This document shows positions 17,423-54,444 of a stretch of DNA of 64,000 bases, one piece after another. Each line of letters starts with the position of its first letter. Position 1 is the first letter of the stretch. The stretch covers positions 62,001 through 126,000 of the forward strand of contig JANQEN010000188.1 of assembly GCA_028278335.1 (NCBI GenBank), given 5' to 3'. The notes below the pieces were generated by a model, which was not told where the DNA came from, searched no databases, and was given only the letters and a program-made list of their open reading frames with translations. The position numbers and the translations under genes were made by a program. This stretch comes from Chitinivibrionales bacterium. Its GTDB lineage: Bacteria; Fibrobacterota; Chitinivibrionia; Chitinivibrionales; JANQEN01.

Positions 17423-18406
17423 CTACTTCTTAAACATCTCCCCTATCCGCTTAAAAAACGAATTCTTTTCGGGAGTGTCTTTTCCTGTCCCTTTAAACAC
17501 TAGGCTCCGCTGCTTTTGGTAACCAAATTTCTCTTCACGAGTCATAGCACCCTCTTCAAGGGTCACGGAGAATCGTTTTTGCAGACTTTGGACAACAGCG
17601 TTGCGCAGGGTCTCGTCAGAAAGTTTTTCCCCAAGCTCTTCCTCAATTGAAGTAAGCGGCTCCATGATCTTGTCCTTTACCTCTGGGGGAACCCAGAGTG
17701 CGGCAAAAAAATCGGTTGGGGTAAATTGACTGATAAAACAGATCATATTGATAACGTAAATATCCTCGGCTTCGGAAATAAGAAAACCGGCAACCTTTTT
17801 CCCACCAATACGCAGACTTCCTCGATGGCGGTACCATACCCCTTTTACCCCAGCAGATACCAGTGCCTCAGAGATTGTTTCGCCAATCGCATGGTAGGCA
17901 TCATCAAGGTCTATAAAAAGAGACTTTGATAACACGGCTTGAATAAAGAGGGTGCTTTCTGGATCAGCAAAGGTAAGGGTACGCTCACCAGTAGTAATAA
18001 TGTGTTGTAATTCTGGCAAGTCCGAACGAATCTCATTGATCAAGGAGACAAAATTGGTAAGACAGACAACTGCTTTGGCACCACAATCTTTAAGGATATG
18101 TGATATCTCCTTACCCTTATACATAGTATTAAAGGGTACAGCTATTGCCCCAAGTTTTTGACAGCCATAAAAGGAAAAGACAAATTCAGGAATGTTGGGA
18201 AGCATAATTGCTACCCGATCACCTTGAGTAATACCGAGCTTCTTTAGGCCATTGGCTACCCGATTAACCGATTTGTCAAGTTCGGAAAATGTCATACTTC
18301 GGTCTTCATGGATAAGTGCCGGCTCGGAACCTTTACAGGAAGCCCATTTTTCAATTAGTTTACCAAGGTCTTGTACTTCTGTTTTTTCTGTATATGCAAT
18401 ACTCAT
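17423..18406 (-). CDS. Chimera: N-terminal part of an acyl-AMP ligase + C-terminal part of a lipoate-ligase-like protein
   Basis: Residues 1 to about 140 match the first third of an AMP-forming acyl-CoA synthetase: MTFSELDKSVNRVANGL, GDRVAIMLPNIPEFVFS and GAIAVPFNTMYKGKEISHIL, up to LPELQHIITTGE. The catalytic P-loop, A5, A7 and A10 motifs never follow. From about residue 142 the protein reads like the second half of a lipoate-protein ligase: RTLTFADPES, AYHAIGETISEALVSAGVKG, then SLRIGGKKVAGFLI with the usual lysine, and an end like TREE. The missing ligase motifs lie in the gene immediately upstream, which in turn carries the lipoate-ligase N-terminus. The start overlaps that gene's stop by one base (TAATG), so the two chains are made together and may assemble. 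Confidence 0.75.
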   Translation of the reverse strand: MSIAYTEKTEVQDLGKLIEKWASCKGSEPALIHEDRSMTFSELDKSVNRVANGLKKLGITQGDRVAIMLPNIPEFVFSFYGCQKLGAIAVPFNTMYKGKEISHILKDCGAKAVVCLTNFVSLINEIRSDLPELQHIITTGERTLTFADPESTLFIQAVLSKSLFIDLDDAYHAIGETISEALVSAGVKGVWYRHRGSLRIGGKKVAGFLISEAEDIYVINMICFISQFTPTDFFAALWVPPEVKDKIMEPLTSIEEELGEKLSDETLRNAVVQSLQKRFSVTLEEGAMTREEKFGYQKQRSLVFKGTGKDTPEKNSFFKRIGEMFKK

Positions 18407-19812
18407 TAAGAATCATCCCGTTCAATAAGTCGTGGGTCTTTATAATCGTCGCGAAGCTCTTTTCGTAGAAGTTTTCCAGTGGCGCTTTTGGGAAGCACCT
18501 CTAAAAATTCAATTTCATCGGGTGTTTTGTAGGTTGCCAGAGCCTTTCGACAATACTCCAAGATTTCCTCTTTGCTTGTTGGTTCTCCCTCCAAGGGCAC
18601 ACAAAATGCCTTGATCGCCTCTTTTTTATCCTCCTCCTGCAACCCAACAACTGCTGCTTCCTTTACTTTAGGATGTTGGTTGAGAAGATCTTCGATCTCC
18701 TTTGGAGAAATATTATAACCACCTTTAATGATGATATCCTTTTTACGATCAGTGATGAAGAAATAGCCCTCTTCATCTTTATAGCCAATGTCACCAGAGC
18801 GAAGCCAACCATTTTTAAAGGTCTCCTTGGTTTCCTTGGGCAAATTATAGTAGCCTTGACTGACCACAGGCCCTTTAATCAATAACTCTCCTGCAATTCC
18901 TTGACCGACTTCTTTTCCCTGGTTGTCAACAATTTTTAGCTCGATTTGCGGACAGGGTAACCCAATGGATCCCTCTTTGATCTTTTCTGGTGGATTGACT
19001 GCAACTGCTGCGGTTGACTCGGTCATACCAAATCCTTCAACAATCATAGCACCAAAGATCTCCTTAAAGGCCTCAATAACCTTTATGGGCAATGGAGCTG
19101 CACCGGATATACAATACCTAAGATGAGGAATTTCTCCCGTCCTTCGACGTTTTGCAGCCATCATAAGGTGCAGATATTGGGTTGGAATAGCCAATACCAC
19201 AGAGACCTTTTTTTCTGCCAGCGTAGCAAGAAACTTTCGCGGATGATATTGTGGAATGAGTACTGAGGTGTTGCCTCGAAAAATGGGAAGGACGCAACCA
19301 TCGGCAAGACCAAATATGTGAAAAAAGGGAACCAAGCTGGCAAAGCAATCCTTTGGATCAGTCTGAATGGGCTCCTCGGTAATTGCACATTCGGAAATAA
19401 AATTCTTCTGTGATATCATTACACCCTTGGGCATACCTGTAGTTCCGGAGGTATAGATCAATGCAGCAAGGTCATCTTCATCGCGGTCTACCGACTCAAA
19501 CTGATCACTTGACTTTACCATCATCTCCTGGAAGGAGATTGTTTCTGCTGGTCTCGTTGAAGCACGTCCAGCTTTGGGCATTACTGCAATATCAATCTCT
19601 TTTTTTTCTGCCTCTTCTCGGTCAATAGATACCTCGGCGCCGGCAAGAATTCCCTTGCGTTTCATTCGCTGTATAATCACTGTTTCCGGTGTTGCCTTGG
19701 CTGCCATAATATACCGGCCTGCGATCTTTCCCTCTGCAACAGCCGAAGGCATGGCAAGAACGTCTGCCACATCACCCTCTGGATTATAAATAAGTCGCCA
19801 CTGTGCTGTCAT
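18406..19812 (-). CDS. Chimera: N-terminal part of a lipoate-ligase-like protein + catalytic part of an acyl-AMP ligase
   Basis: Residues 1-86 do not look like an acyl ligase. The opening AQWRLIYNPEG and the stretch IDREEAEKKEIDIAVMPK resemble the first part of lipoate ligases, with the usual RRxTGG signature degraded to VMPKAGR. From about residue 88 (ETISFQEMM) the rest is a full ANL catalytic core: P-loop IYTSGTTGMPKGVM, A5 EGFGMTEST, A7/A8 LRSGDIGYKDEEGYFFITDR and KDIIIKGGYNISPKEIE, and the C-terminal lysine motif PKSATGKLLRKEL. The N-terminal subdomain is encoded by the next gene. It should activate a carboxylate as acyl-AMP/acyl-CoA. GGAG lies eight bases before the ATG, four bases after the symporter stop. 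Confidence 0.8.
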   Translation of the reverse strand: MTAQWRLIYNPEGDVADVLAMPSAVAEGKIAGRYIMAAKATPETVIIQRMKRKGILAGAEVSIDREEAEKKEIDIAVMPKAGRASTRPAETISFQEMMVKSSDQFESVDRDEDDLAALIYTSGTTGMPKGVMISQKNFISECAITEEPIQTDPKDCFASLVPFFHIFGLADGCVLPIFRGNTSVLIPQYHPRKFLATLAEKKVSVVLAIPTQYLHLMMAAKRRRTGEIPHLRYCISGAAPLPIKVIEAFKEIFGAMIVEGFGMTESTAAVAVNPPEKIKEGSIGLPCPQIELKIVDNQGKEVGQGIAGELLIKGPVVSQGYYNLPKETKETFKNGWLRSGDIGYKDEEGYFFITDRKKDIIIKGGYNISPKEIEDLLNQHPKVKEAAVVGLQEEDKKEAIKAFCVPLEGEPTSKEEILEYCRKALATYKTPDEIEFLEVLPKSATGKLLRKELRDDYKDPRLIERDDS

Positions 19813-19816
19813 AACA

Positions 19817-21319
19817 TTACTCCGTAGATGCTAAAAAGTCATCAACCTCATCATAAAACTTGGCTTGAATCTCTTCTGTGGGTTTAGGGGTTAAATGGCT
19901 TACCACCACAAAAACTATGGCATTAAGAATTATTGACACGAGGATCATTTTGGTACCAACACCAACAATAAAACCAATGATTAAAAGAGAGGTCCCGGTG
20001 AGAACACCGGCAATTGCTCCCTGCTTGGTGGCTCTCTTCCAAAGTACGGCGCCAATAAGACAGGGCGCCCATTGAGCAAAGCCAGGAACTGCCACCAAGG
20101 TGAGGTATTGCGCCAGAGATATGGGATTCCAAAATGAGATAATTGCACTGAGGATGACAATGACAATCACCGAAAGTTTTGTCCACGTAATAAGCTGTTT
20201 GTCACTAGCTTCTGGGTTGATGAACCCATGGATAAGGTCCTTAGAGACAAATATAGCTGAGGTCATAAGCTGAACCGAGGCGGTTGAAACAGCTGCAGCA
20301 ATCACACCCATGAGCACAAACATGGCAAACCATTTGGGTAAATAGGTGGTAACAATGGTTTGGAGAACATAGTCAGCCTCCTTCCCCGTTACTGCCGGTA
20401 CTAAAGTACCAGGCATATGGCTAATCGCAGGAGCAACAATCGAACCCCAGAGAAAGGGTATGGTGTAGAAACAGATACCACCAGCAACAATAGCAAGCAG
20501 TGGAAACCATTTGAAGATGTGCTTTTCCCGAGCGGTCATGGTGCCAATCACCACATGGGGCCAGCTAAATACAAGCATACCCACAATAAATAGTCCCCCG
20601 ATGGTTACATGGTCGAAGTGACCATGGGGCCCTGGGGCGGTAAGAAGTGCATTGGCCTTTGCCGAAAGAATGGTTGTCGCCTCTGTCAATCCACCGGGAA
20701 AGAGCTTGTTGACAATCCAGATAAGGGAGATAAGAAATGCTAAGGTATCAACACCACCAAGAAGAACATTAACCCAGGCGGTCATGCGCATGCCACCTAA
20801 AAGAATGATAAAAATGAGCAGAATGCAGGTATAGACGATACCCACAGCAGGTGGTACATTGCAAAGCGCTTTAAAACCAAGGCCAACACCCAAGGGTTGG
20901 ATACAGATATAGGGTACGATAAATCCCAAAAGGAGAATAACCAAAATGAGCCGCAAAGCCTTTGACTGGTATCTTACTCCCATCATTTCCAAGGGAGAGA
21001 GGAATCGATTCAATCTGGCCACAGCCCAAATACGGGGGCCTAAAAACATATAGAGCGAGGCAAAGCCTGCCACACACCCCCACACAAAAAAGACATAACT
21101 TGGTCCATGCTGATAGAGAAAACCTGAATAGCCATAAAAGGTCCAGGCACTGGATATGGCAAAAAGCATAAAAAAGAACATGACCACAATACCAATACCT
21201 CTTCCAGCAAGCATGTAGTCTTCAGAAGTTTTAGCTGAAATCACATAGCCATAGACCGCCATGAGTAAAACGATAATCCCAAATACACCTAAAAACAGAT
21301 AAACTACTTCATTTCCCAT
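19817..21319 (-). CDS. Sodium/solute symporter (SSS family), carboxylate type likely
   Basis: A 500-residue inner-membrane transporter with about 13 hydrophobic helices. It is of the sodium:solute symporter family (PanF/ActP/proline-permease group). Visible family features are the early TSEDYMLAGRGIG loop, AISSAWTFYGYSGFLYQHGP and GVIAAAVSTASVQLMTSAIFVSKD, the conserved helix with small residues and serines near the Na+ site. It probably brings a monocarboxylate into the cell with Na+, and the ligase encoded just downstream would activate it. The ribosome-binding site is GGGGAG. It is preceded by a small two-helix protein, a common arrangement for this transporter family. Confidence 0.88.
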   Translation of the reverse strand: MGNEVVYLFLGVFGIIVLLMAVYGYVISAKTSEDYMLAGRGIGIVVMFFFMLFAISSAWTFYGYSGFLYQHGPSYVFFVWGCVAGFASLYMFLGPRIWAVARLNRFLSPLEMMGVRYQSKALRLILVILLLGFIVPYICIQPLGVGLGFKALCNVPPAVGIVYTCILLIFIILLGGMRMTAWVNVLLGGVDTLAFLISLIWIVNKLFPGGLTEATTILSAKANALLTAPGPHGHFDHVTIGGLFIVGMLVFSWPHVVIGTMTAREKHIFKWFPLLAIVAGGICFYTIPFLWGSIVAPAISHMPGTLVPAVTGKEADYVLQTIVTTYLPKWFAMFVLMGVIAAAVSTASVQLMTSAIFVSKDLIHGFINPEASDKQLITWTKLSVIVIVILSAIISFWNPISLAQYLTLVAVPGFAQWAPCLIGAVLWKRATKQGAIAGVLTGTSLLIIGFIVGVGTKMILVSIILNAIVFVVVSHLTPKPTEEIQAKFYDEVDDFLASTE

Positions 21320-21327
21320 ACACTCCC

Positions 21328-21543
21328 CTACTTTCTATATGGCCAAAAGAAAAAGAAATAGATCAGGTATGATACAAGCCAAATCATGAGAAATATCAAA
21401 CCCGACAGAAAGGGTAGCGAGATCCAACCGAAGAACGTATGCTCCTGGAAAAAGAATTTTGGTATGTAAAGCATGCCGATAATTGACAGAGCCAAAATAG
21501 AGAGAAAAACTCTCCCGGCAGTGTGTCTGCAAATTTCTCGCAT
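21328..21543 (-). CDS. Small two-helix membrane protein upstream of the SSS symporter
   Basis: A 71-residue protein with two hydrophobic segments (about residues 10-30 and 40-62) and a C-terminal WPYRK. Such small proteins (DUF485/DUF3311-like) often precede SSS-family symporters and may be accessory subunits. I chose the ATG at 21543, eight bases after AAGGA; a longer frame to 21681 adds 46 residues rich in odd codons with no conserved feature. The exact DUF is not certain. Confidence 0.65.
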   Translation of the reverse strand: MREICRHTAGRVFLSILALSIIGMLYIPKFFFQEHTFFGWISLPFLSGLIFLMIWLVSYLIYFFFFWPYRK

Positions 21544-46881: not shown

Positions 46882-49254
46882 ATGGTTAAGAAATGTTTAG
46901 TCCTACTCATCATTCCTGTATTGCTTTTTGCAACGGAATTGACACAAACCTATACCTTTACACAACCGAAAATTGATGGTGATCAGCTGACCATGGAAGG
47001 GTGTCAACCTTCCTACGATGCCTTTGCACCTCGTTTGGCTATTAAACCGGTGAGCCTTTTGCTCCCAGCCGGTCAAGTGGCAGTCTCCTTTGATGTTGCC
47101 TATGGTGAACCGGTAAAACTTAAAAACTCACAATACATTGCACCATTCTTGCCCGGTGGTATTATCAGCAAGCCACCACCAGCAGACTATTACACAAAGA
47201 CAGCTGGCGTTTACAGTGTTGACGCATTTTTGCCTGCAGAGATAAAATCACCGAAGTTTTTCACCCAATATCGCTATGGCCACTCAATATTTTCAGCGAA
47301 TCTTCGTCCTGTTCAATACAATGCTGTTACTGGCGAAGTTCAATTTTACCAAAGTATTACTGTAAAAGTAACCACGGCAAAAGCAAAAAATAGCCAGATG
47401 CCTTTTAGATTCTCACCATTTATTAAAAGCCAATTGGCATTAGAGGTTGATAACCCTGAAGCATTAGAGGGTATTCCTTACACTATCAGAGATGCAGATG
47501 ACTATGATTATGCGATTATCACAACCAATGCGCTGAAAAATTCCTGGGATTCCTTTGTTGCCTTCAATAAAAGAAGAGGATTAAAATCTAAAATACATGC
47601 AATTGAAGAAATTAATAGCTCAAGCTCTGGATCTAAACCAGAGGACAAGCTTAAAAATTTTCTTATTAAACAATACAAAGATCACAAAATTACTTATGTA
47701 ATGCTTGGTGGTGATGACAATTTTGGCACCAACAGAAAACCCTTATCAACAGCTATCACTCATAAAGGCTATTCTGCTGCATTTAAGGATTATGGAACCG
47801 ATCCCATATCTGATAAAGATATTGCCGCAGACATGTTTTATGAAACATTGGATGGTCAGGAGCTTAAGGACCTTGAATGGGAACTCTATGCAGCGCGTTT
47901 TCCCGCAGATAATGCAACTGAGCTTAAACGGATGATCGACAAAACCATAGCCTACTCAGAAAAGCCTGTTAATTCAGCCCTTAAGAAATCGGTTCTTGCC
48001 GGTGAAAAATTATGGGCCAATATCCATGGTGGTACCTGCTATGGTATTGATTGTATGAAACTCCTTAAGGGAAAAAGTACAAAGTATTACGAAACAAACT
48101 GTTTTGACAATAGCTGGTCTCACACAGAACTTAAAGAACGCAGCTCCAGTTGGACAAAAAATAGACTTATTGGCCTCATGAATGACGGAATCCATATTGT
48201 AAACCATCTGGGACACTCCAATAATTTTATGATCATGAAAATGTACAAGCAGTACAATGATGTGCAAAAGCTCACCAATACTGCCTATTGGATCGGTTTT
48301 ACAGAAGGATGCTATTGTGGTTGTTGGGATAATAGAAAAATCTCCTTTAATGCAAGTATAAATACTGGCCATTACAATCATTCCTCACAAGATTGTATTG
48401 CCGAAGAATTTACTGTAGGAACAAGTAAAGGTGCGGTGGCCTTTGTAAGTAACACCCGTTTTGGCCTTGGCGACAATGGAAGAGCAAGTCGTGAGGGTAC
48501 TGATGGATCAAGTATTCGCATTCAGCGCTTCTTTTGGGATGGTCTTTTTGACAAAAAAATGCATCACATTGCTGTAATGCTGGCTTACTCAAAGTGGATC
48601 AACAAAACACCAATTCTTAATACCAATGTTAATGCTGAGCCCTACTTTGGTCAGCTAACTTACTGCGCTTATCAAGTAAACTGTCTTGGTGATCCAGCGC
48701 TCTCTGTTTGGACCTCGACTCCAAAGACCTTTACTGAGCTGCCTGCTTATTCTATAAAGAATAAGGTTTTTGAGATGGACACCAAAAATCCTTACACTTG
48801 GGTCGCTCTTCTTGATAAGGACGATAAAATTATCGCATCACAGCAGAGTGGCACTGATGGTAAAATTAAAATTGAAGATTTACCACTAGTTGATTATCTC
48901 ACCAAAAACCCACGGGCTGACCTAAAAGTTAATATTAAAGCACATAACTACAAGCCTTTTAGTGGTGATGTCACTGCAATTGCCCTTAACAGGATAAGTG
49001 CTTTGCAAAACCTTTCAGTTGTTTCAGCTCACAACAAGGTTAAAATCAATTATAGTATTCCTCAAGCCTCACGAGTATCAATTTCCCTCTTCAATGCTAA
49101 GGGAAGTGAGCTTAAATCAGTGGTTAAGGGATTACAGAGTGGTGGGACCTATTCATTACAGGTTAAAACTGATGATCTCAGTAGCGGAATCTATTATGTA
49201 CGTGCTGCTATAAATAATGCACAGGTCACTGAAAAAATTATGGTTACTAAATAG
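46882..49254 (+). CDS. Gingipain-like C25 cysteine peptidase, paralogue 1
   Basis: Secreted cysteine peptidase of family C25, 790 residues. Layout: signal peptide (MVKKCLVLLIIPVLLFA), a propeptide-like region (about 20-200) ending SPFIKSQLALEVDNPEAL, and the catalytic domain (about 205-620). The catalytic histidine is likely in VNHLGHSNNFMIMK and the cysteine in GFTEGCYCGCWDN. Further conserved text is VMLGGDDNFG and AFVSNTRFGLGDNGRAS. The last 80 residues form a Por/T9SS-type sorting domain (ISLFNAKGSELKSVV, GIYYVRAAI, KIMVTK), so it should be exported to the surface. GGGAGG precedes the ATG. It is the first of three tandem copies; true gingipains cleave after Arg or Lys, but specificity here is unknown. 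Confidence 0.85.
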   Translation: MVKKCLVLLIIPVLLFATELTQTYTFTQPKIDGDQLTMEGCQPSYDAFAPRLAIKPVSLLLPAGQVAVSFDVAYGEPVKLKNSQYIAPFLPGGIISKPPPADYYTKTAGVYSVDAFLPAEIKSPKFFTQYRYGHSIFSANLRPVQYNAVTGEVQFYQSITVKVTTAKAKNSQMPFRFSPFIKSQLALEVDNPEALEGIPYTIRDADDYDYAIITTNALKNSWDSFVAFNKRRGLKSKIHAIEEINSSSSGSKPEDKLKNFLIKQYKDHKITYVMLGGDDNFGTNRKPLSTAITHKGYSAAFKDYGTDPISDKDIAADMFYETLDGQELKDLEWELYAARFPADNATELKRMIDKTIAYSEKPVNSALKKSVLAGEKLWANIHGGTCYGIDCMKLLKGKSTKYYETNCFDNSWSHTELKERSSSWTKNRLIGLMNDGIHIVNHLGHSNNFMIMKMYKQYNDVQKLTNTAYWIGFTEGCYCGCWDNRKISFNASINTGHYNHSSQDCIAEEFTVGTSKGAVAFVSNTRFGLGDNGRASREGTDGSSIRIQRFFWDGLFDKKMHHIAVMLAYSKWINKTPILNTNVNAEPYFGQLTYCAYQVNCLGDPALSVWTSTPKTFTELPAYSIKNKVFEMDTKNPYTWVALLDKDDKIIASQQSGTDGKIKIEDLPLVDYLTKNPRADLKVNIKAHNYKPFSGDVTAIALNRISALQNLSVVSAHNKVKINYSIPQASRVSISLFNAKGSELKSVVKGLQSGGTYSLQVKTDDLSSGIYYVRAAINNAQVTEKIMVTK

Positions 49255-49298
49255 GTTTAGAATAACCTATTTTACATAATATAGGACGGAAGTCTGGG

Positions 49299-49325
49299 GG
49301 GCAAAGTAAATTCCTTACTTTGCCC
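49299..49325 (+). terminator. Terminator after C25 peptidase 1
   Basis: An 11-bp stem GGGCAAAGTAA/TTACTTTGCCC with a five-base loop, followed by TTTATTTTTTTT. Textbook Rho-independent form, 44 bases after the stop. Confidence 0.92.
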
Positions 49326-49445
49326 TTTATTTTTTTTAACACTTTTTTATGCAATGGTATACATTATACATGCACTTATAATGCGCTGAAAAATCCAGGG
49401 TAGGAAAGACGATTTAAACTAAATTCATTACAAGTAGGAGGCTTT

Positions 49446-51818
49446 ATGTTAAAAAAAGCACTTGTGTTGCTCATCATCCCAACACTTTTATTTGCTGCAA
49501 AAATTTCACAAACCTATAATCTTCCCTTGCCGGAAGTGAGAAATCAAGCGATCTATTTAGAGGGCTGCCAAACTGCGGTTGTTCCCTTTGCTCCCAAAAT
49601 TCCCTCGAAGAGTGTTTCCCTAAAACTTCCCTATGGTGAAGTGGCAGTCTCCTATGATGTTATTTGTGAGGAACCGGTGGAGTTTAAGAACGCCGGGTAT
49701 ATCGCACCCTTTCGTCCTGGAGGAAGAAGATCTGCACAACCACCAAAGAATTATTACACTCGTACCTCATCTATTTATAGCGAAAATGCGTTTTACCCAG
49801 CAGAGGTAAAATCACCTAAATACGTAACTCAATATAGGTATGGGCACTCAATTTTAACAGCCAGTTTTCGTCCGGTTCAGTACAACCCGGTTACGGGCCA
49901 GATGAGAAGTTATCGTAAAGTAACAGTTGTTGTTGAGACCGAGAAAATGAAGGAAGAAAAGCCGGTTTTAAAATTTTCTCCTTTCATTAAAAGTCAGTTA
50001 GCATTAGAAATTGACAATCCCGAATCTTTAGAGGGTATTGCCTATACCCCTATAGACAAGGATGACTATGATTATGCTCTGATTACAACCAACAAGCTTA
50101 AAAATGCCTGGAATGATTTTATTGCCTTTAATAAACGTCGTGGCCTAAAAACAAAGCTCAAGACTGTTGAAGACATCAATGCCTCTATTTCCAGTGGCAG
50201 TCAAGCTGAAAAACTTAAAAAGTATTTAAAAGATGAATACGAAAAGAATAATATCACCTTTGTCATGCTCGGTGGTGACGATAACTTTGGCCCAGACAGA
50301 AAACCGCTCGCCGATGCTGTAACTCATAAAAGTTACTCTGCAGCCTTCAAAGATTATGGGACAGACCCTATCTCCGACAAAGATGTTGCCGCTGATATGT
50401 ACTACGAAACATTGGATGGGGATGAATTGGATGATTTGGAATGGGAAATCTACGCTGCCCGTTTTCCTGCTGATAATACAACCGAGCTTAATCGCATGAT
50501 TAATAAAACGATCAAATACTCGGAGCAACCAGTAACCAGTGCCATTAAAAAGGTCATTTTAGCCGGTGAAAAGGCTTGGCCCAATATCAATGGTGGCACC
50601 TGTTGGGGTAAGGACGAAATGCTTTTGCTAAAAGGAACCTGCACTCGCTGGTATACCACCAAAGGATTTGATAATTCTTTTAGCTTTACTGAACTTTATG
50701 AAGTAGACCAGAACTGGTCAAAAAATCAGTTAATTAGCGCCATAAACAGTGGAGTAAACTTTCTTAATCATGTTGGCCATTCCAACAATTTCATGATCAT
50801 GAAGTTATATAAACAATATAATGACCCACAAAAGTTAAACAATAACGCCTTTTATATTGGGTATACAACTGGCTGTTATTGTGGATGTTGGGATAATAGA
50901 AAGATCGCTTATAATGCCAGTATTAATACTGGTCACTACAATCATAGCACACAGGATTGTATTGCAGAAGAGTTTACCGTCGGTATTGACAAGGGTGCGG
51001 TTGCCTTTATCAGCAATACCCGTTTCGGCCTTGGTGATAACGGTCGGGCAAGTCAGGATGGAACAGATGGATCAAGTATCCGTTGCGAGCGCTATCTCTA
51101 TGATGGCTTCTTTAATAAGAAGATGCACCATCTTGCTGTGGCACAAGCTTATTCGAAATGGATAAATAAAACTGCCATTCTCAACACCGATGTGAATGCA
51201 AAACCCTATTATGGCCAGATGGAGTATGTCGCCTATCAAATTAATGTTCTTGGTGATCCGGCACTTTCGGTTTGGACAGAAACACCAAAGACCTTGAGTG
51301 GTGATCATCCAAAAACCATTGATGCTAATGCAACCAAATTTTCTTGGGACACTAAAAATCCTTATACAGCTGTTGCGCTTCTTGATAAGGATGATAATGT
51401 TGTTTGCTCCCAGATCACCGGTGAGGATGGAAAATTAGAGATGAGCGGTCCCGCTTTAACTGAATATCTTCCTTCTCATGCTGGAGAGAAGTTGAAGATC
51501 AATGTTAAAGCATGGAATCATAAACCCTATCAGGGTGAAGTTGCAATATCTGCTACAAACATTGTTAATGCCAATACTCATAGTTTTAATAACCTTGTGA
51601 CTATCAATGGTATTACAAAGATGGTGCAGATATCTCTTCCCACAAAGGATCAGGCTACCCTATCACTGTACAATTCAAAGGGTATCCTTATTCAATCCCA
51701 GAAGATTACTTCCCAAAAGACTCAAGTATCACTCCAAGCGATAAGTAATGGAGTATACTATCTAAGATTGCAATCTAAACATTTCCAGGTTGGTGAAAAG
51801 CTGGTTCTTTCACGGTAA
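49446..51818 (+). CDS. Gingipain-like C25 cysteine peptidase, paralogue 2
   Basis: Second copy, also 790 residues and readily alignable with the first over its whole length. It has a signal peptide (MLKKALVLLIIPTLLFAA), the propeptide with RFS-to-KFSPFIKSQLALEIDNPE, the catalytic histidine in LNHVGHSNNFMIMK and the cysteine in GYTTGCYCGCWDN. The substrate-pocket region between about residues 390 and 440 (GGTCWGKDEMLLLKG onward) differs clearly from copy 1, which suggests divergent substrate choice. The C-terminal sorting domain ends VYYLRLQ...KLVLSR. AGGAGG precedes the ATG. It has its own terminator and is separated from copy 1 by a terminator, so it is transcribed independently. Confidence 0.85.
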   Translation: MLKKALVLLIIPTLLFAAKISQTYNLPLPEVRNQAIYLEGCQTAVVPFAPKIPSKSVSLKLPYGEVAVSYDVICEEPVEFKNAGYIAPFRPGGRRSAQPPKNYYTRTSSIYSENAFYPAEVKSPKYVTQYRYGHSILTASFRPVQYNPVTGQMRSYRKVTVVVETEKMKEEKPVLKFSPFIKSQLALEIDNPESLEGIAYTPIDKDDYDYALITTNKLKNAWNDFIAFNKRRGLKTKLKTVEDINASISSGSQAEKLKKYLKDEYEKNNITFVMLGGDDNFGPDRKPLADAVTHKSYSAAFKDYGTDPISDKDVAADMYYETLDGDELDDLEWEIYAARFPADNTTELNRMINKTIKYSEQPVTSAIKKVILAGEKAWPNINGGTCWGKDEMLLLKGTCTRWYTTKGFDNSFSFTELYEVDQNWSKNQLISAINSGVNFLNHVGHSNNFMIMKLYKQYNDPQKLNNNAFYIGYTTGCYCGCWDNRKIAYNASINTGHYNHSTQDCIAEEFTVGIDKGAVAFISNTRFGLGDNGRASQDGTDGSSIRCERYLYDGFFNKKMHHLAVAQAYSKWINKTAILNTDVNAKPYYGQMEYVAYQINVLGDPALSVWTETPKTLSGDHPKTIDANATKFSWDTKNPYTAVALLDKDDNVVCSQITGEDGKLEMSGPALTEYLPSHAGEKLKINVKAWNHKPYQGEVAISATNIVNANTHSFNNLVTINGITKMVQISLPTKDQATLSLYNSKGILIQSQKITSQKTQVSLQAISNGVYYLRLQSKHFQVGEKLVLSR

Positions 51819-51843
51819 CAACCTATTCGATAAGTATTTAAAT

Positions 51844-51870
51844 GGCAAAGAGATAAATGATCTCTTTGCC
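51844..51870 (+). terminator. Terminator after C25 peptidase 2
   Basis: An 11-bp stem GGCAAAGAGAT/ATCTCTTTGCC with a five-base loop, then TTTTTTTA. It lies 25 bases after the stop. Confidence 0.92.
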
Positions 51871-52083
51871 TTTTTTTATGTTTTTTACGAAAAGTAGCAA
51901 TATATAAGTATTATTTATACTATATATAAATTATTATTGAATTATTGAACCACTATTCCTACTTTTTTGTATATTTATAAATAGTGGTATCTATTACAAT
52001 TCATGAAGCTTATTGTGCTTCAAACAACAATGGTAATAACTATAAGACTCTTTTTCACCATCTTTAATCAATTGGGGGGAATC

Positions 52084-54444
52084 ATGTTTACGAAACTCAT
52101 ACCCATATTACTCTTACCTGCTCTCATTTTTTCCGCTTCGACAGTGACAACAGAAATCACCTTTGCAAAACCGGTTGTAACTAACAATATGGTGTACGTA
52201 CAGGGATGCAAAACAATGGTCATGCCCTTTGCACCAAGTATCCCCACAAAGACTGTCTCGCTGAAGCTTCCCATTGGTGAGGTAGCAGAATCCTTTGACG
52301 TTGAATATGGTGAGCCTATTGCTATAGAGGGTACCCATTATATCAACGCCTTTCTCCCCGGTGGTCGTGTACATGTGGCACCGAAAGCAGAATACTATAC
52401 ACGAAAATCAAGTGTCTACAGTACTGACGCACTCTTTCCTGCAGAAATAAAATCTCCCCGTTTCTTTACTCAGCATCGCTATGGCCACCCAATTTTTACT
52501 GCGACCATTCGTCCAGTGCAGTACAATCCCGTTACCGGAAAGCTTCAATATGTGAAAAGCGTTACCGTAAAGGTAAAGACAAAACAACAGACCAAAGAAC
52601 TCCCGGTTGTTAAATTCTCTCCATTTATCAAAAGTCAATTAGCGTTGGAGATTGACAATCCAGAGTCACTTCAGGGTATCCCCTATACCAAAGCTGGACC
52701 AAATGATTATGAATATGCAATCATTACAACCGAAGCTCTAAAAAATTCCTGGGGTGATTTTGTTGAATTCAATAAACGGAGAGGGCTCCGCTCAAAAATT
52801 GAGACAATTCAAAACATTAATTCAAATTTTCCCGGCCAAGGTGCAGAAAAGCTTAAAGCGTACCTCAAACAGGAGTACAAAGACAATAACATTACCTATG
52901 TCATGCTTGGTGGTGATGATAAGATAACCACTAACAATCAGGTCCTATCAGATGCTATTCCCCACAAGGGATATTCTGCAGCTTTTAAAGATTATGGTAC
53001 CGACCCAATCTCTGATAGAGATATTGCAGCGGACATGTTTTATGAAACGTTAGATGGCGAAGAGTTAAAAGACCTAGAATGGGAGCTCTATGCTGCTCGG
53101 TTCCCAGCTGACAACAACACCGAGCTACAAAGGATGATTAGTAAAACCATCAGTTACTCTGAAAAGCCTGTTAACAGCAGCATAAAAAAATGCATCATTT
53201 CTGGCGAGTATAAGTGGAAAAACATCAATGGTGGCTCCTGCTATGGTAAAGATCAAATGGTATATCTTTACGGTAAAACAAGTAAAAATGGCTATACAAC
53301 TACTGGCTTTCCCAGTTCCTGGACAAAAAAATTGCTCTACGAAAAGGATAGAAACTGGTCAAAAGCCGATATGATAAACGCCATTAACAGTGGTCAGAAC
53401 ATAGTATTTCACACTGGCCACTCAAATAATTTTATGATTATGAAGCTATCGATGAGCCAAAATGATGTGGCTCGTTTGAACAATACCTCCTACTATATTG
53501 GATATACAACTGGTTGTTACCCTGGTTCATGGGACAACAGAAAGATCTCCTTTAATGCAAGCTTTACAACCGGACACTATGCCGATGACTGTATCAATGA
53601 AGAGTTTATGTGTGGTACCAGCAAGGGAAGCGTGGCCTTTGTCAGCAACACCCGTTTCGGATTGGGTGACAATGGTAGGGCAAGTCACGATGGAACTGAT
53701 GGATCAACTATTCGCTTCATGCGCTACTTCCTTAATGCCATTTTTGATGAAAAAATGCATCATATTGCGGTCATGCACGCCTACTCAAAGTGGATCAATA
53801 AAGAGGCAATTCTCGTTACTGACGTAAACAAAGAACCCTACTTTGGACAAATGGCATACTGTGCCTATGAACTGAATGTTCTTGGTGATCCTGCTCTTTC
53901 TATTTGGACTGAGACTCCTCAAACATTGACCCCAGACCATCCAACCTCAATTGCAGATGGTAATTTTTCTTGGGACTCAAAAAAGCCCTACTGTTGGGTT
54001 GCCCTGTTAGATAAGGATGGAAAAGATATTGTCTGCGCGCAACAGTCTGGAAAAGATGGTAAGATCACTATTTCTAATGATGCACAATTAGCCGCATATG
54101 TCACTGCTAATCCAACAGGTAAAATGAAGATAAATGTGAAGGCACATAACTTCCTACCCTATCAAGGTGAAGTGAAGATTGATGCCAGTGCAATTACCAA
54201 CAAAAAAATTGCAGAGTTGAAAAGCAGTATTGCTCTCTCAAAAACCAGAATTAGCTTCAAGCTCCCCGGCGATGAGCACGCCCAAGTATCACTCTACAAT
54301 GCAAAAGGTGTACAGGTATTGACAAAGGCATTTCAGGGTCAAGCTGGTATGGTATCATTATCCGGACTGAGCAACGGAATTTATCATCTGCATATTGAAT
54401 CAAAGAGTGTGCAATTTACTGATAAATTTGTTTTAGCGAATTAA
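52084..54444 (+). CDS. Gingipain-like C25 cysteine peptidase, paralogue 3
   Basis: Third copy, 786 residues. I chose the ATG at 52084, directly after a GGGGGGAA ribosome-binding site and starting the signal peptide MFTKLIPILLLPALIFSAS; the upstream frame would add 27 unrelated residues. The propeptide region ends SPFIKSQLALEIDNPESL. The catalytic histidine is in VFHTGHSNNFMIMK and the cysteine in GYTTGCYPGSWDN, where the extra cysteines of copies 1 and 2 (CYCGC) are replaced by CYPGS. A short gap (GHYADDCINEEF against GHYNHSSQDC) also marks this copy. The C-terminal sorting domain ends GIYHLHIESKS...KFVLAN. Followed by its own terminator. Confidence 0.85.
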   Translation: MFTKLIPILLLPALIFSASTVTTEITFAKPVVTNNMVYVQGCKTMVMPFAPSIPTKTVSLKLPIGEVAESFDVEYGEPIAIEGTHYINAFLPGGRVHVAPKAEYYTRKSSVYSTDALFPAEIKSPRFFTQHRYGHPIFTATIRPVQYNPVTGKLQYVKSVTVKVKTKQQTKELPVVKFSPFIKSQLALEIDNPESLQGIPYTKAGPNDYEYAIITTEALKNSWGDFVEFNKRRGLRSKIETIQNINSNFPGQGAEKLKAYLKQEYKDNNITYVMLGGDDKITTNNQVLSDAIPHKGYSAAFKDYGTDPISDRDIAADMFYETLDGEELKDLEWELYAARFPADNNTELQRMISKTISYSEKPVNSSIKKCIISGEYKWKNINGGSCYGKDQMVYLYGKTSKNGYTTTGFPSSWTKKLLYEKDRNWSKADMINAINSGQNIVFHTGHSNNFMIMKLSMSQNDVARLNNTSYYIGYTTGCYPGSWDNRKISFNASFTTGHYADDCINEEFMCGTSKGSVAFVSNTRFGLGDNGRASHDGTDGSTIRFMRYFLNAIFDEKMHHIAVMHAYSKWINKEAILVTDVNKEPYFGQMAYCAYELNVLGDPALSIWTETPQTLTPDHPTSIADGNFSWDSKKPYCWVALLDKDGKDIVCAQQSGKDGKITISNDAQLAAYVTANPTGKMKINVKAHNFLPYQGEVKIDASAITNKKIAELKSSIALSKTRISFKLPGDEHAQVSLYNAKGVQVLTKAFQGQAGMVSLSGLSNGIYHLHIESKSVQFTDKFVLAN

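Follow-up and report, generated by a model that had tools for sequence, protein, structure and literature searches.

The question raised by this locus is why each of two neighboring genes should begin as one enzyme and end as another, and whether such an exchange can yield functional proteins. In the window, which is the whole 64,000-nucleotide stretch of DNA analyzed here, gene 1 joins the start of a lipoate-protein-ligase-like (LplA-like) domain (segment A1) to the body of an AMP-forming acyl ligase (segment B2), and gene 2 joins the start of that ligase (segment B1) to the remainder of the LplA-like domain (segment A2; Table 1). We confirmed that the observation of two adjacent chimeras with swapped halves is real. 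As the same swap, cut identically, is retained in 24 genomes from three phyla, the pair very probably assembles as a functional complex of two enzymes and is not a sequencing error or debris.

Table 1. Coordinates of the exchanged gene pair, its segments, and the genes upstream of it in the window.
Feature	Positions	Strand	Length or residues	Description
Small ORF (MREICRHTAG...)	21328-21543	-	71 aa	Membrane-protein-like; upstream of symporter; conserved, 7 loci
SSF sodium:solute symporter	19817-21319	-		PF00474, E 1.9e-23; first large gene of conserved operon
Gene 1	18406-19812	-	468 aa	Intact ORF
A1	19555-19812	-	Gene 1 residues 1-86	N-terminal third of LplA-like (lipoate-protein-ligase fold) domain
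B2	18406-19554	-	Gene 1 residues 87-468	AMP-forming acyl ligase, catalytic part
TAATG	18404-18408	-		Gene 1 stop and gene 2 start, 1-base overlap
Gene 2	17423-18406	-	327 aa	Intact ORF
B1	17984-18406	-	Gene 2 residues 1-141	Acyl ligase N-terminus absent from gene 1
A2	17423-17983	-	Gene 2, RTLTFADPES to C-terminus	Rest of LplA-like domain, with GGKKVAG

As the first-pass annotation had reported, both reading frames are intact and share a TAATG, located at 18406, through which translation of the two genes is probably coupled; in most relatives, the genes overlap by 4–35 bases. That annotation had also read gene 1 from residue 87 as the catalytic part of an AMP-forming ligase and gene 2 as the ligase N-terminus followed by a lipoate-ligase half, and Pfam bore out both assignments. 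B2 matched PF00501 at positions 120–384 (205.3 bits) as well as AMP-binding_C (71 bits), and B1, which ends at HIITTGE, matched PF00501 at positions 2–122 (114 bits). The PF00501 scores of the separate B1 and B2 each exceeded the curated cut-off, and A2 matched LplA-B_cat (PF21948) at positions 75–199 with an E value of 1.6e-5, just below the cut-off. The split-profile search proposed for the two proteins returned PF00501 ranges complementary almost to the residue and, as described below, LplA-like similarity in both A1 and A2.

When rejoined, B1+B2 gave a single unbroken PF00501 match (positions 2–384 of 384; 326.2 bits; E 3e-97), of which positions 1–122 of the profile come from gene 2, the ligase domain being split over two polypeptides. 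In alignments to solved acyl-CoA ligases, of which anthranilate-CoA ligase 4wv3 was the nearest, the sole gap was one residue, just past the joint, and the cut falls directly after the strand ending in HIITTGE. Among 11 aligned members, the P-loop (Y)TSGTTGxPKG, the (Y/F)G(M/L)TE motif, and the C-terminal PKSATGK lysine were invariant or nearly so. Given that the nucleotide-binding loop and the C-terminal lysine are kept, the reconstituted ligase domain is predicted, with good confidence, to be catalytically active.

Pfam returned no match for A1. Nevertheless, an A1 alignment built from ten relatives and compared by hhalign against 20 intact LplA-family proteins gave a probability of 83.9 and an E value of 7.7e-6, the alignment covering 79 of 85 residues and ending in the Gly-rich loop. 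Controls consisted of 30 column shuffles, a reversed profile, and a ligase profile. The shuffles reached at best a probability of 1.0 and an E value of 0.056, ruling out chance likeness of A1 to LplA, and the reversed and ligase profiles yielded probabilities of 0.5 and 0.4, respectively. The proposed lipoate-ligase-like start of gene 1 was thereby upheld. A2 alone aligned to intact LplA with a probability of 98.6 (E 8.3e-16) and A1+A2 with 99.3 (E 2e-20), the latter colinear through the junction. The A1+A2 profile also matched the lipoate-protein ligase 6jom in the PDB (E 0.0028), again colinear over the junction. Relative to the PF21948 cut-off of 27 bits, gene 2 alone scored 25.4, A1+A2 scored 27.1, and several relatives scored 28–37. 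Since neither half-domain makes up a whole fold within its own chain, it is highly likely that the AMP-forming ligase of gene 1 is completed by B1, and the LplA-like domain of gene 2 by A1.

The cut in the LplA-like domain, where A1 and A2 meet, lies in the loop corresponding to RRxxGGGA of LplA. A1 ends here in an eroded Gly-rich loop, VMPKAGRAST, and the exchanged members carry a VAVxPRxGRxG-type sequence instead of RRxxGGG. The LplA-like half has lost the RR of this motif as well as the NDL Asp and the HGT His, and exchanged members had neither a Lip_prot_lig_C match nor extra residues that would represent the accessory LplB domain. The nearest intact relatives of A have an LplB-like tail with weak Lip_prot_lig_C matches (E 0.018 and 0.047, below cut-off). 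Given the eroded RRxxGGGA and the lost Asp and His, the LplA-like half may be inactive. However, the catalytic lysine of the G(K/R)K(V/I)SG motif (GGKKVAG here) was invariant in 23 of 23 members amid variable surroundings. The expectation that rejoining would restore two natural proteins thus held for the fold, but with an eroded RRxxGGGA motif, the restored LplA-like product would not be a typical lipoate ligase.

A search for the pair in relatives recovered the two chimeras, cut at identical points, from 24 genomes belonging to Fibrobacterota, Desulfobacterota, and Spirochaetota, a count that includes one genome (G028) with gene 1 only, where the contig ends. Full-length chimeras shared 60–76% identity with those of other Fibrobacterota and 44–70% with those of Desulfobacterota and Spirochaetota. 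The junctions were at the same place in every member covering them, and where both genes were on one contig, they were always adjacent and in the same order. All close A2 relatives (23 of 23) had B1 in front, with no unexchanged version among them; the next matches were intact and far more distant LplA proteins. Likewise, no natural single-chain fusion of both genes was seen among the relatives' loci. In pairs with unsaturated dS, dN/dS was 0.03–0.33 for B1, B2, and A2 and 0.14–0.52 for A1, with one A1 pair at 0.52; in most pairs, the constraint on A2 was roughly that on the ligase part. Purifying selection acts on all four segments. Of the two outcomes that the first-pass annotation had considered, these identical junctions across three phyla and the selection on all segments support the interlocked pair and rule out the recent recombination product.

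The exchanged members formed a monophyletic group in the A tree (support 0.93), with intact LplA proteins adjoining TRAP transporters as its sister group, and also in the B tree, there with weak support (0.61). Both trees contained the same main groups, indicating that gene 1 and gene 2 have traveled together, and the swapped arrangement looks to be of single origin. We propose a single ancient event. Judged from the order A1-B2, B1-A2 alone, its simplest form would be a circle that carried the ligase gene and integrated into an LplA-like gene through a single crossover, which would leave exactly this order; sequences around the joints are too diverged to show the event.

We also encountered other LplA-like proteins in Desulfobacterota. 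Three intact proteins (L118–L120; context L155–L157), ~370 aa long and with a tail weakly resembling LplB, are encoded directly next to the TRAP transporter genes DctP and DctM, without a ligase, which suggests another transporter-linked lipoate-ligase-like system. A further set of 520–540 aa proteins (L121–L138, e.g., L122, L123, L129, L134) combines an LplA-like catalytic domain and an LplB-like part with a C-terminal cysteine-rich region that appeared DUF116-like by eye.

In most relatives' loci, the SSF symporter is directly upstream of the pair. The 71-aa ORF preceding it, also present in most of these loci, had no Pfam match. Two Desulfobacterota loci have instead a different SSF with a DUF485 partner, of the acetate-permease type, a replacement seen in L166, while L167 ends too early to show it. 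In one genome (G240; L076 for the pair), the pair and the symporter are ~730 kb apart, unlike elsewhere, and gene 1 is partly masked. In another (G420; L165 on contig C47), a 41% identical symporter adjoins an intact AMP-forming ligase, with thiolase-, enoyl-CoA hydratase-, and ETF-like genes, named by eye, as neighbors. This arrangement is possibly a picture of the ancestral uptake-and-activation operon, and the position of the symporter homologue among beta-oxidation-type genes suggests ordinary acyl-CoA formation. The common theme of these contexts is carboxylic acid uptake and activation. In humans, biotin, pantothenate, and lipoate are transported by an SSF protein, SLC5A6. No lipoyl acceptor protein gene was conserved beside the pair across loci. 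Given that most host genomes encode another, canonical LplA-family protein as well as GcvH, the pair is not simply a housekeeping lipoyl ligase, and a role as the host's sole lipoyl ligase is not general; no canonical family member was found in G150, G152, G299, and G240, which are possibly incomplete genomes. Elsewhere in the window, three tandem, similar-looking secreted ORFs of 790–813 aa are located at 46882–54444 on the + strand.

Given that neither chain holds a complete domain, we infer that the chains must pair, which would produce two whole domains tied by two covalent crossings. It is reasonably likely that the gene products are the two chains of an obligate heterodimer with both ligase and half-ligase roles. 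The ligase domain would adenylate a carboxylic acid, probably imported by the neighboring symporter. The LplA-like half would receive the acyl-adenylate from the adjoining ligase domain and transfer its acyl moiety, such as that of lipoate, octanoate, or a related acid, onto a target-protein lysine, with the interlocking keeping both active sites together. A half-ligase role for the LplA-like domain is a tentative assignment, proposed from the loss of RR and LplB, the retention of the catalytic lysine, and the existence of known LplA-type half-ligases, such as LIPT1, a protein unable to activate lipoate that nonetheless transfers from lipoyl-AMP (PMC7253636). Our preferred reading of these motif patterns, though held at less than an even chance, is a division of labor in which B adenylates and A transfers. 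The full proposal, that two unrelated enzymes with permanently swapped halves occur only as an interlocked heterodimer whose ligase feeds its adenylate directly to the transferase, we place a little below an even chance.

The main competing explanation is that the locus serves ordinary carboxylate uptake with an acyl-CoA synthetase, in which the LplA-like domain is a pseudo-enzyme acting as a clamp or ligand sensor. Taken for itself, we regard this as possible but rather doubtful; an acyl-CoA synthetase whose LplA-like half is a dead clamp ranks only slightly behind division of labor. It would account for a ligase that is closest to acyl-CoA ligases and keeps their motifs, for the eroded nucleotide-binding motif of the LplA-like domain, for the carboxylate-type transporters beside the pair, one of them with DUF485, and for the G420 symporter homologue beside an intact ligase and thiolase- and enoyl-CoA hydratase-like genes. 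A pure clamp, however, would not need the LplA catalytic lysine that is invariant in all 23 members. The similar constraint on A2 and the ligase part in most pairs also speaks against this explanation.

Two further explanations fare much worse. That the chimeras work independently as two new enzymes of novel two-part folds, neither completing the other, agrees with the intactness and stability of each frame, but the domains in each chain are incomplete and cut inside conserved families, the two genes invariably sit side by side in one order when they share a contig, and the A and B trees share their main groups; we consider it very improbable. The probability of an assembly chimera or a functionless product of recent recombination is close to nil. 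Although draft or metagenome assemblies are the source of the named members, the same junctions recur across three phyla in assemblies that were deposited separately, and the segments are under purifying selection, which excludes misassembly as well as a recent or decaying recombination product.

Gene fusions and splits are common. To our knowledge, a conserved reciprocal half-exchange between non-homologous enzymes has no described precedent. Our literature search, mostly of freely accessible papers, found neither a description of this pair nor a natural case in which two enzymes have exchanged halves and conserved the exchange. A stable reciprocal half-swap of unrelated enzymes across three phyla would represent a different route to an obligate complex. 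The pair would be a natural test case for the tolerance of domains to two-chain assembly, and for adenylate channeling from an acyl ligase to a transferase of the lipoate-ligase fold. Given that automatic annotation may call each gene a fragment or a misassembly, such pairs may go unnoticed elsewhere.

Among known systems, the AMP-forming acyl-CoA ligases (PF00501 and PF13193) are those to which B1+B2 belongs as a full-length member, except that it is here made of two chains, with the first ~140 residues supplied by the downstream gene and fused to another domain. Similarly, A1+A2 is colinear with LplA and the LplA-B catalytic domain family (PF21948) and keeps the catalytic lysine, but the Gly-rich loop is split, RRxxGGGA is eroded, LplB is absent, and the domain is joined across two chains to a ligase. 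The half-ligase LIPT1 is likewise an LplA-like protein that can transfer from an adenylate without making it (PMC7253636), a property that is proposed for the pair; LIPT1, whose real role is amidotransfer, lacks a dedicated interlocked activating enzyme. The archaeal bipartite LplA-LplB resembles the pair in being an enzyme of the lipoate-ligase fold made from two encoded chains (PMC10332631). In that system, whole domains are separated, whereas here each of the two domains is itself cut, and the second partner is not LplB but an AMP-forming ligase of unrelated kind.
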